Source: a virus. From it: a stretch of 23,729 bases of DNA. Below the pieces are notes generated by a model that saw only the letters and a program-made list of their open reading frames with translations, was not told where the DNA came from and searched no databases. Shown here one piece after another: positions 5,766-20,375 of the stretch. The stretch is from positions 1 to 23,729 of IMG/VR virus record IMGVR_UViG_3300020428_000085. One strand, given 5' to 3'. The first letter of the stretch is position 1. Every line of letters starts with the position of its first letter. The position numbers were made by a program, and so were the translations under genes.

Positions 5766-6847
5766 TAAACCTCCTTAAAGTCTACATCTAGTTTAGAGTA
5801 ATCTACCATTAAATATCCAAATTGATTAGGAGTAGCCGCTTGTGGTACTTGATGAGCCATTACACCTTGATATGTTCTATCATCACCTAGATATTTAAAG
5901 TTATAAATTTTAATTCCTTTAGGAGATTTACCAACTAATTTAATATCTTTCTTTAATCTTATATCAGAAGGTGGCATAAATTGTGCTCCAGCTAATGCTG
6001 CACCTGTTACTTGACCAAAGATACTCGGACCACCTACTGGTGTACCTACTGATCCTGATCTTTCTTCTCCATAACTTCTTATAGGAGCACCTGATAATGC
6101 TCCAACCATTTGTCTTATTTGTCCAGCAGGATATTCTCTTGCTTCTATAAAGTCACGATATCCTTCTGCTAATTTAGCTTGTTCTATACCACGTGCTTGT
6201 GCACCAAAAGCTTGAAGACCTTGTGCACCTGATTGTAAAGCTCCTATCTGAGTAGTTGCAGCACCTAGTTGTTGACCTAGTCCTGCCATTTGTGTTTGTC
6301 TATCTTGTGCAAATCTACTTGCACCTGATTCAAAACCTGCTTGTCTTAATCTTGCTGTTGTATCAGCTACTGAATCTAAATATCTTTCTTGTCCTAAAAC
6401 ATTTTGAATACCTTGTCTTGATCCTCCAAAAGCTCCTGAACCTATAGCTTGAGCATCCATAGCTTTTTGAGATTGACCGTAAGCATCACCTAAATCTGTT
6501 AATGCTCCTGAAATAACTTGATTCTCATAAGGATTAGCATAAGCTTGAGCTGTCGCTGTATCATAAGTTTGAGCACCAGCATTTGCTATTTGTTGACCTA
6601 TACCAGCTAATTGTCCAGCTTGAGGAATTACTTGTTGAGAATATACATTTTCTGCTGCAATTTCTTGAGGATCAAGTGAAGCTATACGTTGACCTTGATA
6701 TGCAGTATAAGGTTGACTAAAAACATTCTCTGCTGTTCTTAAAGTTCGTTCTTGAATTTCTTTAAAGTATTCAGGTATATCATAGCTAGTCTGTGACGTG
6801 CTAGGTGCCTGTACTACTGTTGTGCTTGGTTTGAATATACTACCCAT
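5765..6847 (-). CDS. Internal virion/tail protein with short S74-like C-terminus
   Basis: A 360-residue protein. Residues about 25-260 are rich in Ala, Gln and Gly and look like long helices (AGIGQQIANAGAQTYDTATA, GLGQQLGAATTQIGALQSGA). The C-terminus from S294-D295 (SDIRLKKDIK, then GIKIYNFKYLGDDRTYQGVMA) matches the start of the S74 intramolecular chaperone of endosialidase-type tail proteins. Only about 66 residues follow the Ser, which is shorter than the complete self-cleaving domain, so autoproteolysis is doubtful. Marine short-tailed phages often carry such a protein beside the ejection proteins. The start overlaps the acetyltransferase gene by 8 bases; AGGAGG lies unusually far upstream (about 15 bases). 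The module identification is fairly firm, the role in the particle is inferred. Confidence 0.62.
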   Translation of the reverse strand: MGSIFKPSTTVVQAPSTSQTSYDIPEYFKEIQERTLRTAENVFSQPYTAYQGQRIASLDPQEIAAENVYSQQVIPQAGQLAGIGQQIANAGAQTYDTATAQAYANPYENQVISGALTDLGDAYGQSQKAMDAQAIGSGAFGGSRQGIQNVLGQERYLDSVADTTARLRQAGFESGASRFAQDRQTQMAGLGQQLGAATTQIGALQSGAQGLQAFGAQARGIEQAKLAEGYRDFIEAREYPAGQIRQMVGALSGAPIRSYGEERSGSVGTPVGGPSIFGQVTGAALAGAQFMPPSDIRLKKDIKLVGKSPKGIKIYNFKYLGDDRTYQGVMAHQVPQAATPNQFGYLMVDYSKLDVDFKEV

Positions 6848-7295
6848 TGACGATAAAAGTTCCTCCTATAACTTTAAAACCTAATTTAATAAAGGCATTG
6901 TTTTTTCTTTCAACATCTTTACCTTGGAATATTTCACATATAGCAGTAACTTTATTAGCTAATGCATATTCCTTAAATACTATCATTAAAGAACGAAAAA
7001 TGCTAAATCTTCGATGTTGTGGACTTACATGTAACCATAAAGTTCTCATAAACTTTTTATCACTATACCACGTTTCATCTACTGTAGCAGCTAATGTTCC
7101 TACAATAATATTTTCATATTCTACTACTATAACAAAACTATTCTTAATGTAAAATACTATATTTTCTAATGCTTTCTTATTATTAGTATTTCCAAAGTTA
7201 AAAGGAGCCTCTATTAACCATGTTTTTAATAATTCTCTTATTCGAACAGCATCAGAAATCTGTGCTTTTCGTATTTTATATTTATCTTTTTCCAT
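6840..7295 (-). CDS. GNAT-family N-acetyltransferase
   Basis: A 151-residue protein with the order of elements of a GNAT acetyltransferase. It opens with a strand and helix (YKIRKAQISDAVRIRELL), has a central strand pair (FVIVVEYENIIVGTLAA), then the acetyl-CoA-binding motif A region (TLWLHVSPQHRRFSIFRSLM), and a C-terminal part with FIKLGFKVIGGTFIV. The pyrophosphate-binding loop is degenerate: QHRRFS stands where Q/RxxGxG/A is usual, so cofactor binding needs testing. The gene overlaps the end of the nozzle gene by 14 bases and the next gene by 8, placing it firmly in the virion operon. The acetyl acceptor is unknown; a phage structural protein, a host protein or a small molecule are all possible. 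Confidence 0.75.
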   Translation of the reverse strand: MEKDKYKIRKAQISDAVRIRELLKTWLIEAPFNFGNTNNKKALENIVFYIKNSFVIVVEYENIIVGTLAATVDETWYSDKKFMRTLWLHVSPQHRRFSIFRSLMIVFKEYALANKVTAICEIFQGKDVERKNNAFIKLGFKVIGGTFIVNG

Positions 7296-9126
7296 CAGCT
7301 CTTAAATTCACTCTTAAAGTTCCAAATCTCCAATTGTCTCCTATCGCTGTATTTTCTATTTTTATATTAGATTGTCTACCACGGATTCGTGTATTAATAA
7401 ACCCTGTTGTGTTACTTACTGTCACAGTTTCTCCAACGGTGGTATTACCATAAGGATAATCTCTTGTAGTTAAAGTAATTAAAGCATTACCTGTTTGATT
7501 TTGAAAATCAGGTATAATTTTGTTTATAAACATAAATTCTTCTCCGTCAGCTAAATCTCCATCACCTGATTGAATATATGCTGTTAAAGCAGAGCCATCA
7601 GCATCTACGCCATCTTCCATTCTATAAATTATACTTCTACCTGCTGTTAAACCATTTATTTGTGAAATAGTATTAGAAGTAGAATTAGCTGTATATGAAG
7701 TAGCTAAAGGATTTAATTCAACTCCATTATCTTGATATGTACTTCTATTCATAGTTCCAAAACACCAAGAGTTTTCTAAATAATTATAAATAACATATCT
7801 ATCATTTTGATCCGAGGAACTAGAACAATAATACCATATTACTTCAGAGAAATTAGAGTTTTGTGCAGCATAAACCTGAGCATATTGAACTTTATTTATA
7901 TTATCAAAAACATGATTTAATACAGGACAAGGTATTTCTTGAACAGCACCAGCATATCTAAAGAATTGTCCATCAGACATCCAATAAGCTATGTCATCTA
8001 TTACTATTGCAGAATTAAGACCTACAGCTCCACAATCATTACCTAATTGTCTAAAACCAAAAATAAAAGGAGGACCAATAAATGACATTGATTGCATTGT
8101 AGTATCAGTCCATACTAGAATAGTTCCTTTAGCAGGACGTGCACATCTAATTTCACTTCCTCCTGCTATTCTTTGTGATCCAGCTGAATTAGTTACATTA
8201 GGAGTCCATTGATTATATTCTTCTTGATCAGACCAACGAATAAACATTTTATCTTGAGTTGAAGTATTACCAATAGAAGTTTCTGTACCCATACATACGA
8301 CATGTCTAGTTTCAGTAGATACCATTGATAAAGTTGATTTAGTTGGAGCATTAGCAATTATTGTAGCTCTATTACCTGTCATTCCACCTGATAAATCCCA
8401 TTCATAAGTTCCACCTTCTTTTTGAGTAATAATTAAATCTTCTCCCCAATTATTTATAGACCATAATCTTGCATCAATAGTTACATTTGAAGTTGTTCGA
8501 GGAGTTCCCCATGTACTTGCACTCCAAGCACCTGAACCCCAGCCATATCCAAAAGTTTGAAGACTAGGACCTACATTTAATTGATAAGTTACTGTACAAT
8601 TACCAGTAGGACCAATTGTTGAAGTAGCAGTAGCATTACTTTGAATTACATAAGCATCTACATTAGTAACTGATAAGATTTCATATTCAGCATCTAAAGT
8701 TGCAGCTGCAATTCCTCCAACTGAAGTGCTGGTACTACTTAAAGTTACAAAATCGCCAGTTGTAGCTCCATGACCTGTATCTGAAATAGTGACATTAGCA
8801 CTCGTGTTAGTGGTTGTAAAAGCATTAACTAAATTGGCTGTAGCTCTAATAGGAGTAATATCTTGACTATCTCCCGAAGCATAAGTATAGACTTTTCTAT
8901 CTGTTCCTAAAGCTTCATATCTAGCTCCTGTTAAAGAAAACCATTGCTCTAAAGCTCTTCCTACTCCTACATAATAAGCTGTACTAAATTTATTCCAGCC
9001 TCCTAATTTTTGAGGAAGTCCTTTACGAAATCTGATTTTATCTCCGTCAATCCATCTACCTTCTGCTCCGGTTTCTGTATTTTCGGTATCTAATCCAGGT
9101 TGAAAATTTAACTTTGTTAATGGCAT
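7282..9126 (-). CDS. Tail nozzle / DNA stabilisation protein, P22 gp10-like
   Basis: A 614-residue beta-rich protein. The N-terminus (LNFQPGLDTENTETGAEGRW, then DGDKIRFRKGLPQKLGGW) and the central part (FIRWSDQEEYNQWTP, then GGSEIRCARPAKGTILVWTD, then WYYCSSSSDQNDRYVIYNY) are characteristic of the tail-tube nozzle proteins of short-tailed phages related to P22 gp10. These proteins form a hexameric tube below the adaptor ring, keep packaged DNA from leaking, and carry the fibres. The start at 9126 lacks any Shine-Dalgarno sequence (TTTTGTTATATACTTATTATT precedes the ATG), unlike most genes here. It follows the enzyme cassette after a 101-base spacer holding a hairpin, and its end overlaps the acetyltransferase gene by 14 bases. 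Confidence 0.85.
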   Translation of the reverse strand: MPLTKLNFQPGLDTENTETGAEGRWIDGDKIRFRKGLPQKLGGWNKFSTAYYVGVGRALEQWFSLTGARYEALGTDRKVYTYASGDSQDITPIRATANLVNAFTTTNTSANVTISDTGHGATTGDFVTLSSTSTSVGGIAAATLDAEYEILSVTNVDAYVIQSNATATSTIGPTGNCTVTYQLNVGPSLQTFGYGWGSGAWSASTWGTPRTTSNVTIDARLWSINNWGEDLIITQKEGGTYEWDLSGGMTGNRATIIANAPTKSTLSMVSTETRHVVCMGTETSIGNTSTQDKMFIRWSDQEEYNQWTPNVTNSAGSQRIAGGSEIRCARPAKGTILVWTDTTMQSMSFIGPPFIFGFRQLGNDCGAVGLNSAIVIDDIAYWMSDGQFFRYAGAVQEIPCPVLNHVFDNINKVQYAQVYAAQNSNFSEVIWYYCSSSSDQNDRYVIYNYLENSWCFGTMNRSTYQDNGVELNPLATSYTANSTSNTISQINGLTAGRSIIYRMEDGVDADGSALTAYIQSGDGDLADGEEFMFINKIIPDFQNQTGNALITLTTRDYPYGNTTVGETVTVSNTTGFINTRIRGRQSNIKIENTAIGDNWRFGTLRVNLRADGKR

Positions 9127-9172
9127 AATAATAAGTATATAACAAAATTATTAAATTTATACTAAAATTTAA

Positions 9173-9211
9173 GGAGCATGAGGGGTGGTGTGGATATATA
9201 TCTCATGCCCC
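9173..9211 (-). terminator. Hairpin after the enzyme cassette, possible weak terminator
   Basis: Inverted repeat 9173-9182 / 9202-9211 (GGGGCATGAG and CTCATGCTCC in the minus-strand transcript). It forms 10 pairs including one G-U, around a 19-base loop. The transcript continues UUAAAUUUUAG, which is U-rich but not a clean U-run, so termination would be partial at best. The hairpin sits 17 bases after the stop codon of the last oxygenase and 46 bases before the nozzle start. It may instead be an RNA processing or stability element. The rest of this 101-base spacer (9127-9172) is AT-only-like sequence in which I see no convincing promoter. Confidence 0.5.
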
Positions 9212-9227
9212 AAGATTATGTTTTATC

Positions 9228-9863
9228 TTACTTTTTAGGTAAAGTAAAGCCTTTATAAAAGGCTGGAAGTCCTATAAATGGACGTTTATCAAACTCATTT
9301 TCTTTAGCATTTTTTGATCCTGCTTTATTATAATGTAAAAATACTTGTGCACAATCTTTACCAGTAAATTCTTCTCGCCAATGTTCAAGATCACAACCAG
9401 AATAAATTAACATGTCACCTGGTTCTAGTTTTACTTTAATACCAGCTTGACCTTCTTTACCTGTTGGGTCTAAATATATAGGCCAATCACCACCACCTAG
9501 ATTTAAAGTAGTAGATATTTCACACGAATATCTATCTTTGTGTCTAGCTAAAACATCTCCTTTTTTATAAATTCTTGCATAAGAATAAGTTTCAGATAAT
9601 TTCATACCTGTATGTTTTTCCATAACTGGTTTAACTTTTTGTAATAAAGTTTCCATAACTAAATCACTATAATGGGAATAAGTATTAGGAACTTGTTGAT
9701 CATTCCATACTCCCCAATACTCTGTAAATGGTGATATGTATCTTTGATCAAATAAAAGTCTGGCAACCTTTCTTTTATTAAGAAAATAAGCAAAACAAAA
9801 GTCTGCCATTTCTCTATTAAGTGCTTTTTTTAAAATACTGTATTTATTTTTTTTGAACGACAT
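9228..9863 (-). CDS. 2OG-Fe(II) oxygenase, prolyl-hydroxylase-like
   Basis: A 211-residue member of the 2-oxoglutarate/iron(II) dioxygenase superfamily. The core is YARIYKKGDVLARHKDRYSC with H108-x-D110 as the first two iron ligands. Strands ISTTLNLGG and WPIYLDP follow, then KLEPGDMLIYSG and the distal ligand H161 (LEHWREEF), ending with AQVFLHYN. Such enzymes couple oxidation of 2-oxoglutarate to hydroxylation of a substrate, often Pro, Lys or Asn in proteins. The usual distal Arg/Lys that binds 2-oxoglutarate is not obvious here; R163 and K169 are candidates. AAAGGAG stands 7 bases before the ATG, and the start overlaps the preceding oxygenase gene by 20 bases. It is the last gene of the four-enzyme cassette. 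Family assignment is firm, substrate unknown. Confidence 0.85.
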   Translation of the reverse strand: MSFKKNKYSILKKALNREMADFCFAYFLNKRKVARLLFDQRYISPFTEYWGVWNDQQVPNTYSHYSDLVMETLLQKVKPVMEKHTGMKLSETYSYARIYKKGDVLARHKDRYSCEISTTLNLGGGDWPIYLDPTGKEGQAGIKVKLEPGDMLIYSGCDLEHWREEFTGKDCAQVFLHYNKAGSKNAKENEFDKRPFIGLPAFYKGFTLPKK

Positions 9864-10590
9864 TTAATACTCCTTTCGGTATTGCTTGACAGTTAAAATG
9901 TATAAATCTAAATGGTTCATACCCCATATCTATTACATATTGATGTGGCATATAAGACGGAAAAAATATCATTCGTCCAGGTTTTACTTCATAATTAATT
10001 TGTGAACTTGCATATGTAACTTTAGATTTATCTTTTTCTGGTAAAAGATTCATTATATTACCAGGTCTAGGATCTTCAAATAAAGGTCTTGAAGTTTTAT
10101 TACTAGCTTTTAAAAAATAAAAACCTGAGATATGACCATTCCAATGAGTATGTAAGGTATGATGTCCTCCACCATTCTTAGCAAATTCTTGTACCCATAA
10201 TTCAGTAATAAATACTTGATAATTAGTTAAATCAAAACCCATTTCTAATAATAAATTATTTGCTGTTGCACCAATATAATTAGTTAATTGATTAAAATTA
10301 GGATCTCCAATCAAACTTGTTGAATGAAAAACATTCCCCATATCTCCTTTATCACCAAATTCTTTATTTCTTTTATCTATATCTTTTTTTAAATTATCTT
10401 TAGAAATTTTAATATAAGGATCAGATGCTTTATTTAAATCTTCTACAAATGAATCATCATCAGCAAACCATATAGGACATTTAAATAAATCTTCTTTTGC
10501 TAATTGTATAGGAAATGATTTAACACTTTCTTTTTTATTTCTTTTTTTCTTTTTCATTTTTATCACTTTGTCATTCCATTGTACCAACAT
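9844..10590 (-). CDS. 2OG-Fe(II) oxygenase, TIGR02466/PF13759-like
   Basis: A 248-residue putative 2OG-Fe(II) dioxygenase. It starts FPIQLAKEDLFKCPIWFAD at residue 26. The metal site is H147-T-H149-W-N followed by GHISGFYFL, where HxH replaces the more usual HxD, as in this family. It continues with PLFEDPRPGN, then GRMIFFPSYMPH with distal H216, and R228 (EPFRFIHFN) for the 2-oxoglutarate carboxylate. The start is uncertain. ATG at 10590 gives 28 bases of overlap with the halogenase gene and a weak GGAA upstream. ATG at 10557 gives a natural MKKKKRNKKES N-terminus just after the halogenase stop but without a clear ribosome binding site. It is the third gene of the cassette. Substrate unknown; related genes are common in marine phages. 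Confidence 0.83.
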   Translation of the reverse strand: MLVQWNDKVIKMKKKKRNKKESVKSFPIQLAKEDLFKCPIWFADDDSFVEDLNKASDPYIKISKDNLKKDIDKRNKEFGDKGDMGNVFHSTSLIGDPNFNQLTNYIGATANNLLLEMGFDLTNYQVFITELWVQEFAKNGGGHHTLHTHWNGHISGFYFLKASNKTSRPLFEDPRPGNIMNLLPEKDKSKVTYASSQINYEVKPGRMIFFPSYMPHQYVIDMGYEPFRFIHFNCQAIPKGVLNVVQKK

Positions 10591-11711
10591 TTAAAGTTCC
10601 ATTTATGCCATTGACCATATATGTCAGGTGCATTAGTCACGTTACTGTCGAGCAATTCAATCATTGGAGACAATTTAGCCTCATTTAGAATTTTATTAAA
10701 TAATGGATCCTTAATTTTAAGTTTTTTAGCAGCTTTCCAGAAAGGCGTATTATATTTAGAACCATAGCTATAATGCCACATAATAAAGTTTTGTATTTGA
10801 TTTACATAGTTATGAAATTGATTAGTAATAACTTCAGGAGTTATTTTTTTCTCTATGATCCAATCCCATGTACAACGTGCCCAATGTAAATAGGATGCAA
10901 TAGCGGTGGATTCTAAAGGTTCAAGAAAAAATAAACGATTACCACTTAAAATAATTCTATTATCTATTATAGGTTGCTTAGCTACATAATTTTTAAATTT
11001 AAAATTATCTACTTTTTCATTTAAATAAATACCTTGTTCTGCCAACTTAAATAACTTTTTGAAATTAGTGGCTGCTTCGTTAATAGGAGTAATTTTATCA
11101 TTATAAAGATAACCATAAGAAGTAGTATTAGTAGTGTTGGGAATAACAAAAGTCCATCCATCAGGAGTAGCTACAGCACGTGTCCAGTTAATATCACAAT
11201 CTTTAGATTTTCCTTCTCCTAAAAGAACAGCATTTAAAGGATTGTTGAGCATTGTATAGTTCTCCCAATTAGTTATATGTCTACCACGACAATCAAAAAT
11301 ATAGTCTGAATCAATTTGTTCATAGTTATTAATAGATTTTTTTATCACCTTAAAATATTTAGATTTTAAAATAGTGTCTTGTAATTTAGCAGGATTGTAT
11401 TGAAGACCAACTGAATGTAAGCTAAAAGGATGAAAGACTTTATTATTTTTCTTTCCCCAATTTTCATACAAAATTCCAAATTTAGGAGTAGCATTAATAG
11501 GATTATTATACCAATTGATTCCAAGAGCTGCCCATAAAAGTTGAGGTGGTTCCAAGAGAGTGGCTTGTCCTACCTTTTCAGGAGGAATATTAGGATCATA
11601 AAGTAGTTCAACAGAAATATTTGCTCTATTACGAGTATAATAAGCATAATGCAAAGCAGTTAAACAGCCAGCATTTCCTCTTCCTAAAATAGTAATTTTT
11701 ATCTTTTTCAT
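10563..11711 (-). CDS. Flavin-dependent tryptophan-halogenase-like protein
   Basis: A 382-residue flavoprotein of the tryptophan halogenase family. Visible are the FAD dinucleotide-binding loop GRGNAG (residues 10-15), KVGQATLLEPP (46-56, family VGEAT motif), and K77 in NATPKFGILYENW at the place of the PrnA catalytic Lys79. WTFVIP (186-191) is a variant of the family WxWxIP, and FFLEPLESTAIASY has E267 at the place of PrnA Glu346. Both residues thought to direct hypohalous acid are therefore present. It is clearly shorter than PrnA or RebH (over 500 residues), so the substrate-binding part is reduced. Marine phages do carry such genes; VirX1 from a cyanophage was shown to iodinate varied substrates. 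The start overlaps the upstream oxygenase stop by 4 bases. Non-halogenating monooxygenase activity remains possible. Confidence 0.82.
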   Translation of the reverse strand: MKKIKITILGRGNAGCLTALHYAYYTRNRANISVELLYDPNIPPEKVGQATLLEPPQLLWAALGINWYNNPINATPKFGILYENWGKKNNKVFHPFSLHSVGLQYNPAKLQDTILKSKYFKVIKKSINNYEQIDSDYIFDCRGRHITNWENYTMLNNPLNAVLLGEGKSKDCDINWTRAVATPDGWTFVIPNTTNTTSYGYLYNDKITPINEAATNFKKLFKLAEQGIYLNEKVDNFKFKNYVAKQPIIDNRIILSGNRLFFLEPLESTAIASYLHWARCTWDWIIEKKITPEVITNQFHNYVNQIQNFIMWHYSYGSKYNTPFWKAAKKLKIKDPLFNKILNEAKLSPMIELLDSNVTNAPDIYGQWHKWNFKCWYNGMTK

Positions 11712-12334
11712 TTAAAAGGCAATCCTAAATTCCATATTACTAAACTATGTCTAGATCCTTTTGTAACTGGACATACTCTATGCCAAATAAATCCAGGAAA
11801 GACCACTAAAGATCCTTTAGGTAATATTTCTTTACATTTTTTAATATTACGTTTTTTATCAGGGTCTAAATTTCTAAAATCAAATTCTAATTCTCCACCT
11901 TTATAATCTTTAGGATCTGATAAAGTAACTGTAACTGATAGTTTTCTTATTTTACCATGCGATGGAGTATTAGGTTGATTATAAGGTTGATCCCAACCAT
12001 CACAATGCCAATCATAATATTGACCTTTATTATATTTAGTAAATTGACAAGCTTCTGAATAATCCCATTGATAATTCCAACCTGCATTAGCATTTGCTTG
12101 ATGAATATAAGGTTGTATTTCTTTATAAATCCAACGATCAGACATCCAGACTATATTTGAATCTCTTTTTTTTTTTAAATCTTTAATTTGTTTTTGATTT
12201 AATTTTTTAGAATCACCATAACCACCAGTAACTGCCATTTGATCTGATAATTGTTTTCCATAACGTACAATGTCATCACATACACGATGTGGAATTACTG
12301 ATTGAAAATAATAATAATGATTTGCTAAATTCAT
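11708..12334 (-). CDS. 2OG-Fe(II) oxygenase, PKHD-type
   Basis: A 208-residue dioxygenase of the 2-oxoglutarate/iron(II) superfamily, closest in shape to PKHD/PiuC-type hydroxylases. Iron ligands are H110-C-D112 (YYDWHCDGW) and H185 (FPGFIWHRV); R195 (KGSRHSLVIW) should bind 2-oxoglutarate. Between them lie KLSVTVTLSDP and YKGGELEFDF. It is the first gene of the four-enzyme cassette and overlaps the halogenase by 4 bases. The start codon lies at the base of a nested inverted repeat (12333-12381), and only a poor AGAAAG precedes it, so initiation is probably controlled. A run of eleven A residues on the coding strand (12166-12176) encodes part of LKKKRD and could allow slippage. Family is firm; the substrate is not known. 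Confidence 0.87.
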   Translation of the reverse strand: MNLANHYYYFQSVIPHRVCDDIVRYGKQLSDQMAVTGGYGDSKKLNQKQIKDLKKKRDSNIVWMSDRWIYKEIQPYIHQANANAGWNYQWDYSEACQFTKYNKGQYYDWHCDGWDQPYNQPNTPSHGKIRKLSVTVTLSDPKDYKGGELEFDFRNLDPDKKRNIKKCKEILPKGSLVVFPGFIWHRVCPVTKGSRHSLVIWNLGLPFK

Positions 12335-12384: not shown

Positions 12385-14166
12385 TTAAGAAACTGTTAAT
12401 GTTCCAGTTACAGTAAAAGTAGCAATTTTTTCTCCACCTGGGGCTGTTGAAGTTGCGTTACATCCAGGCGATACTGATAAACTAGAACAAGCTGGAAATC
12501 TTACAATAACTACACCACCACCTCCAGTTGATATACCTGACGCACCTCCACCTGTTCCTGGTGCACCAGAATTAGCTGGTGTATTTCCAGATCCTGTACC
12601 TCCACCACCACCTGGTGCAGCTGGTCCTTGACCTCCAGTATTTCCATGCGCTGCTCCACCACTAGCTCTTGTTACTGCCGCTCCTGTTATTGAACTAGCA
12701 ATTCCCGCACCTGCTGGTCCATATCCTTCACCTGGTGTAGAATTGCCTCCTGCGCCACCGGCACCTCCACCACCACCTCCGCCAAAAGTACCTGGCCATG
12801 TTCCACCATTACCACCTGGGTTACCTTGAGGTTGAGGACTTATAGGAGGCACATTTCCAGAACCTCCAGTATTACCACCGCCGCCAGCTCCACCTCCTGA
12901 ACCTCCATCAGCACCATTAGGTAATGAACTGCCAGGGAATTGAGATCCTCCGGATCCACCTCCTCCATTGGATGTTATTGTATGAAAAGTTGAATCTCCT
13001 CCATTAGCTCCAAGAGGAAATCCAGTAGCACCTCCACCGCCAATTGTAATTGTATAATCTCCTTCTTCTAATGCTGGAAAACCAGATACTCCTGATCCTA
13101 ATGGAGAGGCAGAATAAGAACCAGTATTTGTTCCAGCTGATTCTCTATATCCTCCAGCTCCACCACCACCAAAAGTACCGCTCCAGTTACCATTACTACC
13201 ACCGCCACCACCGCCGGCAATAACTAAATAATCCATTGCATAAGTTGCTAAAAATTTTGGCCATGTTCCATCTTGCTTGGATTGAAATTGTGATTGCATC
13301 GACCACATACCACTTGCTTTGTTTAATTCTTTAAATACTACAATTCCTGAACCACCTGCTCCACTTGTTTTACCTGGATAAGAAGCAGGAAAACCTCCAG
13401 CTCCTCCACCACCGCCACCAGTATTAGCAGTTCCAGATGTTGCAGTTGCTGTTCCACTTGGAGCTCCAGCTCCACCGCCTCCTGATCCACCAGCTCCACT
13501 ACTTCCGCCTGGTCCTTCACCAGCTCCACCGCCACCACCAGCGTATGTTGTACAATTTAATGGACTTGGCGAACCTGCTCCGCCAGCTGCTCCGGCGTTA
13601 CATGAACCATTAGCTCCAACACCTCCAGCGCCACCACCTCCACCACCACCTGCTGTTCCAGGTGCTGGTATTTTTGATCTTCCACCGTCATTTCCTTCTG
13701 GAATTGTAAATCCACCTTCGTTACCAGATCCACCAGGAGAGTTATTTCTTTGACCACCTCCACCACCAGATCCACCGTCTCCAGCAGCTACTCCACATGG
13801 ACCTCCAGCTCGACCACCACCTGTTGATATATATTCTGTACTTCCTACTGTAATTTTTGTATTTTCTCCTTTATTACCAAAGGTTCCAGCAGGAGATGAA
13901 GATACTGCTGCACCTCCAGCTCCAATAGTTACTGGAACATTTCCGGGAACACTAATACATGTAAAATTTCTAAAACCACCTGCACCGCCGCCACCACCAG
14001 CATATGCGCCACCACCAGATCCTCCACCTGCAACTACTGTTGCATCGACAAGTCTAGTTCCTGTTTGAAAAGATGAACATCCTGTGGCTGTTACAGTTGT
14101 AACTTTACACTTCCCAAAAGAAGTTTCATTTACTTTACCGATTATACCGCCATTATTATTAGGCAT
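12385..14166 (-). CDS. Glycine-rich tail fibre/adhesin 2
   Basis: A 593-residue fibre-like protein. A short N-terminal peptide (NNNGGIIGKVN) resembles that of the other glycine-rich fibre and may be the particle attachment point. Two tandem modules follow. Each starts with a hydrophobic strand running into poly-glycine (DATVVAGGGSGGG at about 41; MDYLVIAGGGGGG at about 311), then AGGFR or AGGYR, a TIGAGG-type strand, and a closing GIVVFK or GVVIVR. The linker KASGMWSMQSQF precedes module two. Glycine-rich repeats of this kind form polyglycine-II bundles in phage adhesins such as S16 gp38, so receptor binding is the likely job. The C-terminus ends FTVTGTLTVS, as in the paralogue. AAGGAG stands 10 bases before the start. 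The enzyme cassette follows directly. Confidence 0.8.
   Translation of the reverse strand: MPNNNGGIIGKVNETSFGKCKVTTVTATGCSSFQTGTRLVDATVVAGGGSGGGAYAGGGGGAGGFRNFTCISVPGNVPVTIGAGGAAVSSSPAGTFGNKGENTKITVGSTEYISTGGGRAGGPCGVAAGDGGSGGGGGQRNNSPGGSGNEGGFTIPEGNDGGRSKIPAPGTAGGGGGGGAGGVGANGSCNAGAAGGAGSPSPLNCTTYAGGGGGAGEGPGGSSGAGGSGGGGAGAPSGTATATSGTANTGGGGGGAGGFPASYPGKTSGAGGSGIVVFKELNKASGMWSMQSQFQSKQDGTWPKFLATYAMDYLVIAGGGGGGSNGNWSGTFGGGGAGGYRESAGTNTGSYSASPLGSGVSGFPALEEGDYTITIGGGGATGFPLGANGGDSTFHTITSNGGGGSGGSQFPGSSLPNGADGGSGGGAGGGGNTGGSGNVPPISPQPQGNPGGNGGTWPGTFGGGGGGGAGGAGGNSTPGEGYGPAGAGIASSITGAAVTRASGGAAHGNTGGQGPAAPGGGGGTGSGNTPANSGAPGTGGGASGISTGGGGVVIVRFPACSSLSVSPGCNATSTAPGGEKIATFTVTGTLTVS
12394..12417. 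repeat. 24-bp direct repeat, copy at 3' end of fibre 2
   Basis: The 24 bases here are identical to those at 14716-14739. Both copies encode the FTVTGTLT ending of a glycine-rich fibre gene. Identity at the DNA level, including third codon positions, points to recent duplication or recombination rather than only protein-level conservation. Confidence 0.75.
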
Positions 14167-14179
14167 GCTTTAAGTCTCC

Positions 14180-14647
14180 TTATGCGGATACCCAAGCTAA
14201 TGTTGAAGCATCCCAATTAAAATTATTTACTGGATCTGAAAAATCCGTTGCAGTCCATCTTAGATTAGGTTCATCCCAACTTATCGCTTTATCTGTTGTA
14301 TCAGTTGGAAAAGTAACTGGCGCTTGCCAATCATCATTTCCGTCTAATGCCCAAGATGCGTAAGGTTGAGGTGATAAAAATTTATCTTTTGCAACATTAT
14401 AAGTATAACTTTTACCTGCATATTGTTTTCTGAAATTATTATTGTAAGAAGTTTGTTTCCACTCTCCACCTTTAAAGAAATTTTTACACCATGTTTCACC
14501 ATCAACATGCATGTCATTATTTCCTAAAGGACCTGCTGCTGTAGAAATATCATTTCCTGCAACAATGACTCTTTCAACAACCCATAAAGTATCCGTTGTA
14601 TGGCCGGTTGGATCTGTTTTTTGTCTTATTTCTGCAAAATGTGCCAT
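14180..14647 (-). CDS. Small fibre-associated structural protein (marine-phage family)
   Basis: A 155-residue protein of a type widespread in cyanophages and other marine phages, beginning MAHFAEI and containing KQTSYNNNFRKQYAGKSYTY, PQPYASWALDG, WQAPVTFPTD and a W-rich end (WDEPNLRWTATDF, FNWDASTLAWVSA). No enzymatic motif is visible. Members usually lie among tail-fibre genes, and this one separates the two glycine-rich fibres. It may be a fibre cap, chaperone or collar piece, but no function is established from the sequence. AAGGAGA stands 6 bases before the start. The 62-base spacer upstream of it (14648-14709) contains long A-runs on the coding strand and nothing else recognisable. Confidence 0.7.
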   Translation of the reverse strand: MAHFAEIRQKTDPTGHTTDTLWVVERVIVAGNDISTAAGPLGNNDMHVDGETWCKNFFKGGEWKQTSYNNNFRKQYAGKSYTYNVAKDKFLSPQPYASWALDGNDDWQAPVTFPTDTTDKAISWDEPNLRWTATDFSDPVNNFNWDASTLAWVSA

Positions 14648-14709: not shown

Positions 14710-16668
14710 TTATATTGTTAATGTTCCAGTTACAGTAAATGTCATTACAGTACACCCTCCTGCAGGGGCTGGTAATGTTGTTTTAGTATTAGTTCCTGGG
14801 GCTACTGTATAACTAGGTCCCGCAGGTCCTGGAACTCTTAAAATAACTACTCCTGAACCTCCTGTTGCACTACATGAAGCACCATTACTTCCACCAGCTC
14901 CACCTCCAGTATTAGCAGTTCCATTAGCTCCAACACCAGGTCCTGATGGGGCTCCAATAGATCCTGCTCCACCGCCGCCTGCTCCAGCAGTTCCTCCAGT
15001 TCCTCCATTATAACTAGATCCTCCACCGCCACCTGCATAAGTAACTGGACTTCCTGAAATTGAATTAGCTTTTCCTGCTCCACCAGCTCCACCAGCAGTT
15101 GGGGTTCCTGCACTACCGGCAGCACATGCTCCACCACCTCCGCCAGATCCATAATTTGGTGCACCTGTTGAATTACTTGGAGACCCATTAGTTCCTTGAA
15201 CAGGAGATACTGGTGAACTATTTGCGGGAACATTTCCAGTTCCACCTGGAGCATCATTTCCACTCCATGCTCCAGCTCCACCACCTGAACCTCCTGGTTG
15301 ACCATTATCACTACCACTACCATTACTATTACAAGCGGTTCCTCCACCGCCTCCACCACCAAAAGAAGTAATATATCCTATCCAAGAATCAGTACCTGAT
15401 TTTCCAATTGATCCTACACTTGAACAAACAGTAGCCATACCACCTGCTCCACCAGCACCAATTACAACTTGATTAGTTCCTGGATTTAAAAATAATTTTG
15501 TTCCACCTGGAAATGAACTTCTATAACCACCAGCTCCACCACCGCCTCCGCCAGAAGCAACGTTTCCACAAATTCCTCCACCACCGCCTCCGCCAGCTAC
15601 TACTAAATAATCTAATTCATTTGAACCTAGCGATGTAAAAGTTACATTACTTGATGCTTTAAATTCTGCTATAAATGTTCCTGTACCACCATCAGGTGAA
15701 TTAACAGGTGCACAATTACTATCTGTTGACATATATGAACTTGATCTTAAAATTACTACTCCAGACCCACCTACAAGACCATCATAATTAGCTGAACCTG
15801 AGGGGTTAGCTGGACTCGGACCTGCGCCTTGAGAATATGCACCATTTCCAGTATTATCTTGTGCATCTATTCTTCTTATTAAAGCTCCAGCAGGATTACG
15901 TGAAGCAAAACCACCGCCTGCTGCATAAGTTAAAGCTGTTCCTGTAATAGCATTTGGTGCACCCGCACCACCGCCTAAAGGAGTTTTAACTCCAGCACCA
16001 GGAGAAGTTCCTCCTGCTCCAAGTGCTCCACCACCTGCACCTGAACCTGTCATACATCCTGTTCCTCCTGCTCCACCAGCATTTCCTTCTGATTTACAAT
16101 AACCTCCAGCATTTCCTGTTCCTGCGCATCCACCTGATCCACCACCTCCTCCACCTGATCCACCAGGTTGAGCATTATGTCCAGGTGCACCTTGAGTAGA
16201 AGGTTGTGCACCTCCTCCTCCACCTGAAGCTGAAATTTTTGTAGTTCCTTCTACACCTGCGGGATTATAAACTGAAGCTCCACCAGCACCAGCTGTAGTA
16301 CCAGGTCCTGGTGATGAACCAGCAGAAGCTTGACCTCCTTTAGTTCCACCTGCTCCTACCGTAACTCCATAAGTTCCCCACCTTTGACTGATTGCAGTAC
16401 CTCTTAAAGGAGAAGGTCCGTAACCAGAAGCACGATAGCCTCCAGCTCCACCTCCTCCACCACCTTGAATATGATAATAATTTCCACCTGATCCACCGCC
16501 ACCACCGACTACTAAATAATCGGATGTTGCAAAATTATAAACCCAATCTGAATTTTTTACATAAGAATATACAGTATTTGTTCGCCACATACCAGAAGCT
16601 TTTCCACAAGCTGCACATCCATTAGTTACTGTGTTAGGGGGTCCAATTATTCCGCCATTGCCAGCCAT
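14710..16668 (-). CDS. Glycine-rich tail fibre/adhesin 1
   Basis: A 652-residue fibre-like protein and paralogue of the following glycine-rich fibre. The N-terminus AGNGGIIGPPNTVTNG is followed by the linker KASGMWRTNTVYSYVK at about residue 23. Two modules then appear. The first begins SDYLVVGGGGGSGG at about 49 and closes with GVVILR near 310; the second begins LDYLVVAGGGGGGG near 352 and closes with GVVILR near 615. Each includes AGGYR and a TVGAGG or VIGAGG strand. The protein ends TFTVTGTLTI. Several cysteines lie in the first half (CAAC, GGCAGTG, GTGCMTGSG). Polyglycine-II type adhesin architecture, as in S16 gp38, is the likely fold. AGGAGG stands 8 bases before the start. Receptor recognition is inferred, not shown. 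Confidence 0.8.
   Translation of the reverse strand: MAGNGGIIGPPNTVTNGCAACGKASGMWRTNTVYSYVKNSDWVYNFATSDYLVVGGGGGSGGNYYHIQGGGGGGAGGYRASGYGPSPLRGTAISQRWGTYGVTVGAGGTKGGQASAGSSPGPGTTAGAGGASVYNPAGVEGTTKISASGGGGGAQPSTQGAPGHNAQPGGSGGGGGGSGGCAGTGNAGGYCKSEGNAGGAGGTGCMTGSGAGGGALGAGGTSPGAGVKTPLGGGAGAPNAITGTALTYAAGGGFASRNPAGALIRRIDAQDNTGNGAYSQGAGPSPANPSGSANYDGLVGGSGVVILRSSSYMSTDSNCAPVNSPDGGTGTFIAEFKASSNVTFTSLGSNELDYLVVAGGGGGGGICGNVASGGGGGGAGGYRSSFPGGTKLFLNPGTNQVVIGAGGAGGMATVCSSVGSIGKSGTDSWIGYITSFGGGGGGGTACNSNGSGSDNGQPGGSGGGAGAWSGNDAPGGTGNVPANSSPVSPVQGTNGSPSNSTGAPNYGSGGGGGACAAGSAGTPTAGGAGGAGKANSISGSPVTYAGGGGGSSYNGGTGGTAGAGGGGAGSIGAPSGPGVGANGTANTGGGAGGSNGASCSATGGSGVVILRVPGPAGPSYTVAPGTNTKTTLPAPAGGCTVMTFTVTGTLTI
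14716..14739. repeat. 24-bp direct repeat, copy at 3' end of fibre 1
   Basis: Second copy of the 24-base sequence found at 12394-12417. It lies at the same relative place, in the last codons of the paralogous fibre gene, just before the poorly conserved final residue(s). Confidence 0.75.
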
Positions 16669-16680
16669 AATTTAAACCTC

Positions 16681-17037
16681 CTAATCTGCTATTACTTCAT
16701 ATGAAATCAAACATTCAAGATCACTATTTGCAGAAGCTAATCCTGAAATTTTTTCATTTTCTTCTAAATAAAATCCGTTATTTTTATCTATTAAAGAAAG
16801 AGTAGCATCCGCAGGTACAGAAATTGTACTTGCTATTGATCTGGTATCTGATCCATCAAAAAATTTAACAGTTACATCTGCAGCATTAGTCCCATCTATA
16901 TTTGAGATTAAAATTGAATTAATTTTAAAAACAGTATTTGCTGTTGCAGTAACTAAATTAGCACTTGTAGTAGTTAAAGCAAAAGTATCTGTTTTTCCAT
17001 TAATAGTTGCTACATTAACTATATTAGGGTTTGCCAT
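16681..17037 (-). CDS. Small virion-associated protein (marine-phage family)
   Basis: A 118-residue beta-rich protein with NIVNVATINGKTDTFALTT at the start and KINSILISNIDGTNAADVTV in the middle, features I recognise from a small protein common among tail genes of marine phages. No catalytic residues, signal peptide or membrane segment are seen. It lies between the short tail-fibre protein and the first large fibre, with AGGAG 9 bases before the ATG. A role as a decoration, collar or fibre-base protein is possible. Function is unassigned. Confidence 0.6.
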   Translation of the reverse strand: MANPNIVNVATINGKTDTFALTTTSANLVTATANTVFKINSILISNIDGTNAADVTVKFFDGSDTRSIASTISVPADATLSLIDKNNGFYLEENEKISGLASANSDLECLISYEVIAD

Positions 17038-18934: not shown

Positions 18935-19594
18935 TTATTGTCCTCCAGTTAATGTATTTGTACCTAGTGGGCTACCAGGAAACTTATAGTCTGTTCTTCT
19001 TCTTCTACGAGCTTCATTATTTATAGTAGCTACTTGTTCTTTATACAAATTTTTGTATATAGTATAGTCTTCCATGTTCTTTGTAAAGAGATTTGCTTCA
19101 GCTAAACAAGCATAAGTTAATGTACTTGGAATATTTTCAGTATACCAATTTGTAGTATTGGTATTAGATAAAGGATTAATTTTACCTTGATATCCTAATT
19201 TCATTGTATATGCTTGATCTGGAGTAGGAGCTAAATAAACTCTATTATCATCAAAATTAGCAAAATATTTAGGTTGACCTTGAATTGATATATCAGGCCA
19301 ATATTCTTGACAAAAAGCTAATGTTTTCATTTCTAAATAACTTACATTAGAACCTACTGTAATAGTTAAATAATTAAATAACATTGGTTCAATAGCAGTA
19401 GGAAGATTTACAAATCTATCTCCAGCGATGGAAGTAGTAGTTACATTTTCATTAAATCCAATAGGGTCAATATCTCTTGATAAAGATTCAAAAGCATTTT
19501 GAATAAAATTTTCTATTTGTGCAGTAAAATCAGTTCCTGTATTTTCAGCCCAAACTTTAATATCATTTTGGAGACTGCTGTACGTCATTGCCAT
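18935..19594 (-). CDS. Second adaptor-type (head-tail connector) protein
   Basis: A 219-residue protein with the layout of phage adaptor proteins. An N-terminal helix region (YSSLQNDIKVWAENTG, then FTAQIENFIQNAFESLSRDI) is followed by strands (DRFVNLPTAIEPMLFNYLTI), the family-typical VYLAPTPDQAYTMKLGYQGK, and a C-terminal helix pair (ACLAEANLFTKNMEDY, then YKEQVATINNEARRRRR). It resembles the adaptor encoded two genes upstream, particularly at the PxPDQxYT core, so the window has two related connectors. They may form successive rings between portal and nozzle. The start overlaps the glycosyltransferase gene by 32 bases, with GAGG 9 bases upstream. The basic C-terminal RRRRR is unusual and may touch DNA. 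Confidence 0.68.
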   Translation of the reverse strand: MAMTYSSLQNDIKVWAENTGTDFTAQIENFIQNAFESLSRDIDPIGFNENVTTTSIAGDRFVNLPTAIEPMLFNYLTITVGSNVSYLEMKTLAFCQEYWPDISIQGQPKYFANFDDNRVYLAPTPDQAYTMKLGYQGKINPLSNTNTTNWYTENIPSTLTYACLAEANLFTKNMEDYTIYKNLYKEQVATINNEARRRRRTDYKFPGSPLGTNTLTGGQ

Positions 19595-20375
19595 GTTTAA
19601 TTACCTCATCAACTTTAAATTTAGTCCATACATGTCCAGCAAATGGATAAGTTCCATAATGCGTCAAAGGACTTTGAAGATCAGCATATATCTTACCGCC
19701 TATTTTTTGCCATAATCTACAAAAAGCATAATCTTCACTTAAATATCTATTACTTTTTTCATCAATAATACAGTCAAAAAATGCATAGCAATTTTTACTT
19801 GAATATCTATCATTATTTATAATTTGATCACTGGTATATTTAAGATTAGGATAAGCTTCTTTCATTTTATCAAAAACTTCTTTTTTTATACACATAAATC
19901 CAGTTGCAGCATCTAAAACTTCAGTAAATCCTTTTTCTACTTTAATATTGTTAGGATTAGCAAAATTTAAATTATAACCTAATGCTTTTTGTTCTAAATT
20001 AGTAGGATCTTCTTTTACAAAACCAGGAATTCCTTTCCAATCAATTGATTTTCTAGGATATATACCACAAGCAATATCAAAATCTGATTGTAATAATCTA
20101 GTTACAGCTTCTCCATTAAATCCTATATCTGCATCAATAAACATTAAATGAGTAAAAGAATGTTCATCTTTTTCACAATAATCTAAAAATTGACTTACTA
20201 ATGTATTTCTAGCTCTAGTAACTAAACTTTCATTTCCCATTGTATTTAAATGAACTTTAAATTTATTTTTAGCTGCAAATTGAGTTAGACTTAATATACC
20301 GTGTAAATATCCTTCGGATAAAAGACCACCATAACAAGGTGTTGCGACCATAACACCAATTTTTTTTTCACTCAT
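19563..20375 (-). CDS. GT-A-fold glycosyltransferase-like protein
   Basis: A 270-residue protein with the marks of a family-2-like GT-A glycosyltransferase. The N-terminal strand GVMVATPCYGG is followed by a helix, LVTRARNTLVSQFLD, and then LMFIDADIGF, where D81-A-D83 would bind metal and the nucleotide sugar. Downstream are DIACGIYPRK, AATGFMCIKKEVFDKM and the acidic LSEDYAFCRLW, a likely catalytic or acceptor-side motif. There is no transmembrane segment, so it should act in the cytoplasm. Its position between two connector genes, overlapping them by 4 and 32 bases, suggests it works during particle assembly, for example glycosylating a virion protein. Donor and acceptor cannot be read from the sequence. 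Host surface or DNA modification are alternatives. Confidence 0.78.
   Translation of the reverse strand: MSEKKIGVMVATPCYGGLLSEGYLHGILSLTQFAAKNKFKVHLNTMGNESLVTRARNTLVSQFLDYCEKDEHSFTHLMFIDADIGFNGEAVTRLLQSDFDIACGIYPRKSIDWKGIPGFVKEDPTNLEQKALGYNLNFANPNNIKVEKGFTEVLDAATGFMCIKKEVFDKMKEAYPNLKYTSDQIINNDRYSSKNCYAFFDCIIDEKSNRYLSEDYAFCRLWQKIGGKIYADLQSPLTHYGTYPFAGHVWTKFKVDEVIKHGNDVQQSPK

Follow-up and report, generated by a model that had tools for sequence, protein, structure and literature searches.

Why would a marine phage carry three oxygenases and a halogenase among the genes for its virion? The question is raised by a 23.7 kb virus record (IMG/VR record IMGVR_UViG_3300020428_000085; the whole stretch is called the window below), which holds late genes of a podovirus on the minus strand and comes, probably, from a marine phage of SAR11 bacteria. 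Its capsid and tail genes are nearest to those of HTVC023P, HTVC027P, the Roseobacter phages CRP-901/902 and DSL-LC04. Within this virion gene block, three 2-oxoglutarate (2OG)-Fe(II) oxygenases (OxA, OxB and OxC) and a tryptophan-halogenase-like flavoprotein (HAL) are flanked by a glycine-rich gene (12385-14166, PF21722) on one side and by a tail gene (7282-9126, phrog_3287) on the other. We suggest, with confidence that tips only slightly in favour, that the oxygenase trio hydroxylates, and HAL sometimes halogenates, the glycine-rich adhesin complex post-translationally, and that these genes form a receptor-binding-protein maturation module.

The four open reading frames (ORFs), first described from the bare sequence (the sequence-only reading), are intact on the minus strand:

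11708..12334, minus strand: OxA, PKHD/PF13640-type 2OG-Fe(II) oxygenase (Pfam, solved relatives, conservation)
10563..11711, minus strand: HAL, compact flavin-dependent halogenase by predicted fold, 382 amino acids; accessory insert between OxA and OxB (PF04820, phrog_2928)
9844..10590, minus strand: OxB, PF13759/TIGR02466-type 2OG-Fe(II) oxygenase (start possibly at 10557)
9228..9863, minus strand: OxC, predicted 2OG-Fe(II) oxygenase, 'ferrochelatase' in phage annotations (phrog_2954, motif, predicted fold)

Coordinates, flanking genes and overlaps all agree with that first description: OxA and HAL overlap by 4 bases, HAL and OxB by 28 (if OxB begins at its first ATG), and OxB and OxC by 20.

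A fixed oxygenase trio with an accessory halogenase

Viral contigs were scanned four times, with HAL, OxC, OxB and OxA as queries; after removal of duplicates this gave 267 contigs, the window included. Neighbouring genes played no part in their selection, but the contigs are related, so that the counts below do not represent independent events. OxA, OxB and OxC follow one another in this order in 175 contigs, with an empty OxA|OxB junction in 149 of these and an empty OxB|OxC junction in 163. A glycine-rich gene immediately precedes OxA in 132/158 contigs, and the tail nozzle gene immediately follows OxC in 125/142. Comparison with the closest relatives gave dN/dS values of ~0.1-0.25 for all four genes, indicating purifying selection, and this together with the synteny of the trio in 175 contigs argues that the enzyme ORFs are not there by chance.

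HAL behaves differently. It occupies the OxA|OxB junction in only 6/175 trio contigs and is missing from all 80 loci that are nearest to OxC; elsewhere this junction holds other ORFs of ~160-205 amino acids. We conclude that the trio is fixed and HAL is an accessory insert. The sequence-only reading had expected relatives to carry the same four families in the same order beside glycine-rich fibres, as one fixed cassette. This holds for the three oxygenases, which are not mostly apart and away from tail genes, but not for HAL, and its optional presence, varying position and sometimes opposite strand rule out a single conserved four-gene cassette. Placement among the virion genes and the link to glycine-rich adhesins, also part of the earlier description, recur in numerous related contigs as well as other phage families.

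A 2OG oxygenase gene lies within four genes of HAL in 48 of the 64 HAL contigs, and 40 of these 48 also show a glycine-rich or nozzle gene. Gene order around HAL is free and strands differ; it is therefore co-location, rather than a fixed operon order, that is conserved. Representatives of the gene clusters making up the cassettes mostly score as 2OG oxygenases, plus JmjC_2 and DUF6445 proteins and one weak sulfotransferase match. In contigs L010, L038, L039, L071, L035-L037 and L292, enzyme cassettes run counter to the flanking structural genes or, in some of the contigs other than L292, to further enzyme genes, a pattern that suggests several separate insertions or inversions at one site. 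HTVC027P has an opposite-strand arrangement too. In Mosig EXVC030M (L157, 11984-13220), a phage whose SAR11 host is non-photosynthetic, a 2OG cassette ends in genes annotated as heme oxygenase and phycocyanobilin:ferredoxin oxidoreductase. Campylobacter phage CP21 (L152, 8001-9200) carries a halogenase relative close to its portal and tail sheath genes; PF13640, PF13759 and PF21722 gave no matches in this phage.

Enzyme families and the 'ferrochelatase' label

The proposed families, three 2OG-Fe(II) oxygenases and one tryptophan-halogenase-like protein, are borne out by Pfam for OxA, OxB and HAL, and by predicted fold and an HxD..H motif for OxC. OxA matches PF13640 at 1e-16 and has PiuC (9ghl) and Sbal_3634 (3dkq) as its nearest solved relatives. 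Its H110-x-D112 ... H185 ... R195-x-S197 residues are each at least 95% conserved across 99 sequences, so that the iron triad and the RxS 2OG motif are complete. OxB matches PF13759 (5e-14) and scores above the cutoff of TIGR02466; the usual HxD/E...H iron triad is not present in its alignment of 88 sequences, which keep H147-x-H149...H216 instead, as does 3bvc. It belongs to this family, with an apparently different ligand set, and the same unusual replacement of HxD...H by HxH...H runs through nearly all OxB-type relatives examined. Since most OxB homologues align only from residue 11-25, its start is uncertain: M12 (10557) is a possible alternative to the first ATG and would remove the overlap with HAL.

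OxC has no significant Pfam match. It matches phrog_2954 at 2e-50, a family labelled 'ferrochelatase', and its matches in the phage collection are cyanophages and pelagiphages plus two unassigned records. The residues H108, D110 and H161 of its H108-x-D110...H161 motif are invariant in the homologue alignment, and its AlphaFold model (predicted local distance difference test score, pLDDT, 90.5) matched many 2OG oxygenases in Foldseek with a probability of 1.0, best of all Pseudomonas putida prolyl-4-hydroxylase and PHD-type hydroxylases. The ferrochelatase profile PF00762 was found in 0/14 phage genomes, while the control was positive in 8/14 known genomes. We therefore assign OxC to the 2OG-Fe(II) oxygenases on predicted fold and HxD..H; the 2OG-type fold and the missing Pfam/PF00762 signature rule out a ferrochelatase. 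The same assignment, by predicted fold and motif, extends to the phrog_2954 'ferrochelatase' of pelagiphages and cyanophages at large.

The prolyl hydroxylase relationship is best read as one of predicted fold. P. putida prolyl-4-hydroxylase (4j25; 4iw3 with EF-Tu) and PHD2 are top fold matches of OxC and protein-modifying 2OG oxygenases, but they share only 11-16% identity with it, and the likeness gives no substrate specificity. A natural OxC-OxA fusion protein, S-SCSM1_248, is encoded near tail-fibre genes in S-SCSM1, where oxygenase genes are interleaved with tail-fibre genes; phrog_3531 likewise covers both an OxC-like and an OxA-like half.

HAL matches PF04820 at 6e-31 and phrog_2928 at 4e-68. 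Its GxGxxG motif reads GRGNAG (residues 10-15), where nearly all homologues keep G10 and G12 and some have Ala for the third Gly. K77 and E267, in regions that align to PrnA, are invariant in a 37-member alignment and correspond to the catalytic Lys/Glu pair, PrnA K79/E346; the H94-x-F96 pair, the counterpart of the PrnA indole sandwich, is also kept. In the WxWxIP region (GWTFVIP) the first Trp is invariant and the second has become Phe in nearly all members. The AlphaFold model (pLDDT 89.8) has PyrH, RebH and PrnA as top Foldseek matches, PyrH at E 3e-23, with a TM-score of 0.81 by query and only 0.63 by target, HAL being the shorter protein: between the flavin adenine dinucleotide (FAD) part and the C-terminal part it has ~100 residues fewer than solved halogenases. 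PrnA Y443, Y444 and E450, which hold the amino-acid end of free L-Trp, pair with HAL Y365, G366 and N372, so that two of three seem to differ, in a stretch where the profile alignment is marginal. Taken with its predicted structure, HAL is a compact flavin-dependent halogenase of the tryptophan halogenase fold.

Linkage to adhesins and exchange between backbones

The genes around the enzymes, listed from upstream to downstream, are as follows:

16681..17037, minus strand: g16681, upstream member of the adhesin+oxygenase block (50% identity to its HTVC033P counterpart)
14710..16668, minus strand: GLY1, second glycine-rich putative adhesin (PF21722, 1e-19)
14180..14647, minus strand: g14180, small Trp-rich protein with 9 Trp in 155 amino acids (phrog_7759), kept between the glycine-rich genes
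12385..14166, minus strand: GLY2, glycine-rich putative adhesin and proposed substrate (PF21722, 6e-22)
9127..9231, minus strand: OxC-nozzle spacer with a conserved hairpin, downstream border of the block (folding z = -3.4, motif conservation)
7282..9126, minus strand: tail nozzle/stabilization-type virion protein, a backbone gene outside the exchanged block (phrog_3287, 3e-80)

The link between enzymes and adhesins is well supported. The cultured pelagiphage HTVC033P, of the HMO-2011 type, has gp58, gp60 and gp61 as its trio, and at gp58-gp61 it shows the order GLY-g14180-GLY-OxA-OxB-OxC, identical to that of the window, with the differences that it has no halogenase, a 52-amino-acid ORF annotated between OxB and OxC, and another tail gene downstream. 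Its late region matches the window only in g16681, GLY1, g14180, GLY2, OxA, OxB, OxC and an amidase, the Ox proteins being 79-83% identical, and no homologue of the capsid, nozzle or other backbone genes of the window was detectable there. Metagenomic contigs carry the adhesin+trio block with either backbone, window-type or HTVC033P/HMO-2011-type. As the block is common to the window and to the otherwise unrelated late backbone of HTVC033P, we conclude that the enzymes move with the adhesins. Nozzle homologues are present in HTVC023P, HTVC027P, CRP-901 and DSL-LC04; in CRP-901, whose backbone is related but whose host is another one, the matching region is annotated with no 2OG gene. A g14180 homologue adjoins a glycine-rich gene and a 2OG cluster in the myovirus HTVC008M as well, and g14180 is a candidate halogenase substrate.

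The linkage also holds in sequenced genomes. In 11 phage genomes with a PF21722 match, chosen for carrying OxC or HAL, 6/8 halogenase genes have a PF21722 gene within 12 kb (1.0 expected by rotation, p ~0.001), as do 33/109 2OG matches (17 expected, p ~0.003); general clustering of late genes could contribute to this proximity. CPUG_00131 of cyanophage Syn10 is VirX1, the iodinating flavin halogenase of known structure (PDB 6QGM), and like HAL it sits amid fibre or glycine-rich and 2OG oxygenase genes: with another halogenase as its neighbour, it comes after two PF21722 fibre genes and is followed by a run of ORFs, mostly 2OG, JmjC_2 or DUF6445, the last of which is an OxC homologue. VirX1, at 531 amino acids, is nearer to full-length tryptophan halogenases, whereas HAL (382 amino acids, lacking ~100 residues between the FAD and C-terminal parts) is a distant relative of it (phmmer E 1e-7).

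The downstream border of the block has a signature of its own. Here, the stretch separating OxC from the nozzle gene can form a hairpin with the stem GGGGCATGAG/CTCATGCTCC and the CCACCAC-type motif CCACACCAC in its loop. This motif occurs in 120/141 related spacers and is enclosed by a stem in 89/89 distinct ones, compared with 31% when the arms are shuffled, and the stem pairs vary with compensation; Rfam gave no family match in the window, hairpin included. The hairpin may terminate or process the adhesin-cassette transcript, which would make joint expression with the adhesins plausible, and with the nozzle less so. Tight overlap had been taken to imply fixed-ratio co-expression with tail proteins; this is weakened by the hairpin, by the opposite-strand cassettes and by OxA, for which no obvious ribosome-binding site was seen. 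A sigma-70 promoter scan returned 46 sites, with 42 expected. The idea that the four enzymes act as a single pathway is not well supported.

Proposed adhesin maturation and its rivals

Action on the phage's own fibres is the best-supported reading. Late in infection, OxA, OxB and OxC would hydroxylate side chains in the adjacent glycine-rich adhesins, in the Trp-rich g14180 or in both, and in some lineages, that of the window included, HAL would be added and halogenate aromatic side chains of the same proteins with reduced flavin drawn from the host, bromine or iodine being plausible in seawater. The modified adhesin would then enter the virion, which the enzymes need not do, and the change might serve receptor binding. 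Characterised JmjC_2 and prolyl-4-hydroxylase/PHD family members hydroxylate proteins; the cassettes carry JmjC_2 proteins, and the predicted OxC fold is closest to prolyl-4-hydroxylase/PHD. HAL, for its part, keeps K77, E267 and H94-x-F96 but perhaps not all of the residues that hold free Trp in PrnA. Peptidyl Trp is an established target of some flavin halogenases that act on ribosomally synthesized and post-translationally modified peptides (RiPPs), such as ChlH (PMC12518702) and a leader-guided brominase (PMC10286304); these and MibH resemble the proposed system in targeting Trp in a ribosomal peptide, but they belong to bacterial peptide natural products rather than virion proteins, and we claim no specific homology.

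Several observations weigh against adhesin maturation. Most 2OG matches in the complete genomes (76/109) lie more than 12 kb from glycine-rich genes, and in large myoviruses most are far off; the HAL-2OG distance in complete phage genomes is not significant (p ~0.15); 15/64 HAL contigs show neither a 2OG nor an adhesin or nozzle gene in view; cyanophage HALs can adjoin a transaldolase or the major head gene; and physical linkage alone could make neighbouring genes travel together. Trp and Tyr are slightly enriched in the adhesins of HAL-carrying contigs, but nozzle Tyr is also raised and g14180 Trp is lower, so that phylogeny may explain the enrichment; amino-acid composition of contigs with and without HAL is therefore unusable as a substrate test, the nozzle protein differing as well. 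We hold our confidence near half because many 2OG genes of large myoviruses lie at a distance from adhesins, because roughly one HAL contig in four shows neither neighbour, and because the composition test is confounded. A wider proposal can be made only tentatively, as a possibility that falls well short of probable: that phages of SAR11 and picocyanobacteria carry exchangeable oxygenase/halogenase sets which modify their own receptor-binding proteins and so diversify adhesins chemically, with VirX1 and many 'auxiliary metabolic' 2OG oxygenases natively serving this end.

The main rival, and the published view, is that these are auxiliary metabolic genes, the oxygenases altering host 2OG/nitrogen or iron metabolism and HAL a host metabolite, with adhesin proximity reflecting an insertion hot spot among late genes. 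It draws on proposals that 2OG oxygenases modulate 2OG/NtcA in cyanophages (PMC3037559) and that phages halogenate host metabolites (PMC10452541), and on some HAL and many 2OG genes that are found at a distance from adhesins. In HTVC023P-type pelagiphages, the 'ferrochelatase' always occurs with an adjacent 2OG oxygenase, the two being seen as iron-related partner genes (PMC9599517); gene kinds and neighbourhood are shared with the window. That study mentions no halogenase, and the OxC reassignment, the adhesin linkage and the exchange with HMO-2011-type phages are added here. The 'ferrochelatase', however, is none, the trio is fixed beside the adhesin and moves with it between backbones, and the many diverged 2OG paralogues per phage would suit many protein sites better than one metabolic step. 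We regard a role in host metabolism as rather unlikely.

That the enzymes alter the surface or envelope of the host late in infection (glycan, lipid or porin), for example against re-adsorption of progeny to debris or against superinfection, appears more doubtful still. It would explain co-transfer with adhesins too, receptor and adhesin being matched, and it is in keeping with genes annotated as glycosyltransferases in the late regions of HTVC023P and HTVC027P and with a phrog_1574 protein in the window (19563-20375); yet the strongest fold matches of OxC include protein hydroxylases, and reading the sequences by eye, with no predictor used, brought up neither a signal peptide nor a membrane segment. 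Least probable is that HAL is a flavin monooxygenase which hydroxylates protein Trp/Tyr in the manner of QhpG, making the cassette wholly hydroxylating: QhpG is its best NCBIfam match (E 0.0035, far under cutoff), the second Trp of WxWxIP is Phe in nearly all members and the region between the FAD and C-terminal parts is reduced, but K77/E267, the counterpart of the catalytic pair of halogenases, is invariant and the top fold matches are all tryptophan halogenases.

In abundant ocean phages, 2OG oxygenases and 'ferrochelatases' are frequently listed as auxiliary metabolic genes, and both were reported to be enriched in seasonal viruses (PMC11561400). The OxC reassignment corrects a misannotation already built into ecological conclusions, and the iron and heme inferences that rest on the phage 'ferrochelatase' label need revision; the evidence points away from iron insertion in the host and towards maturation of receptor-binding proteins. 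The reviews consulted treat VirX1, a studied biocatalyst, as just that, assigning it no native substrate, and treat halogenases as acting on host metabolites (PMC10452541). The ferrochelatase reassignment, the PF21722 linkage of trio and halogenases, the context of VirX1 and the transfer across backbones were not found in the open-licence literature and so are apparently new. The question is directly testable in the cultured phages HTVC033P, HTVC023P and Syn10.

Two further proteins of the window, both encoded on the minus strand within the virion block, are candidate modifying enzymes. The phrog_1574 protein at 19563-20375, with no Pfam match, appears glycosyltransferase-like by eye, and the one at 6840-7295 is a GNAT-type acetyltransferase (phrog_1249).

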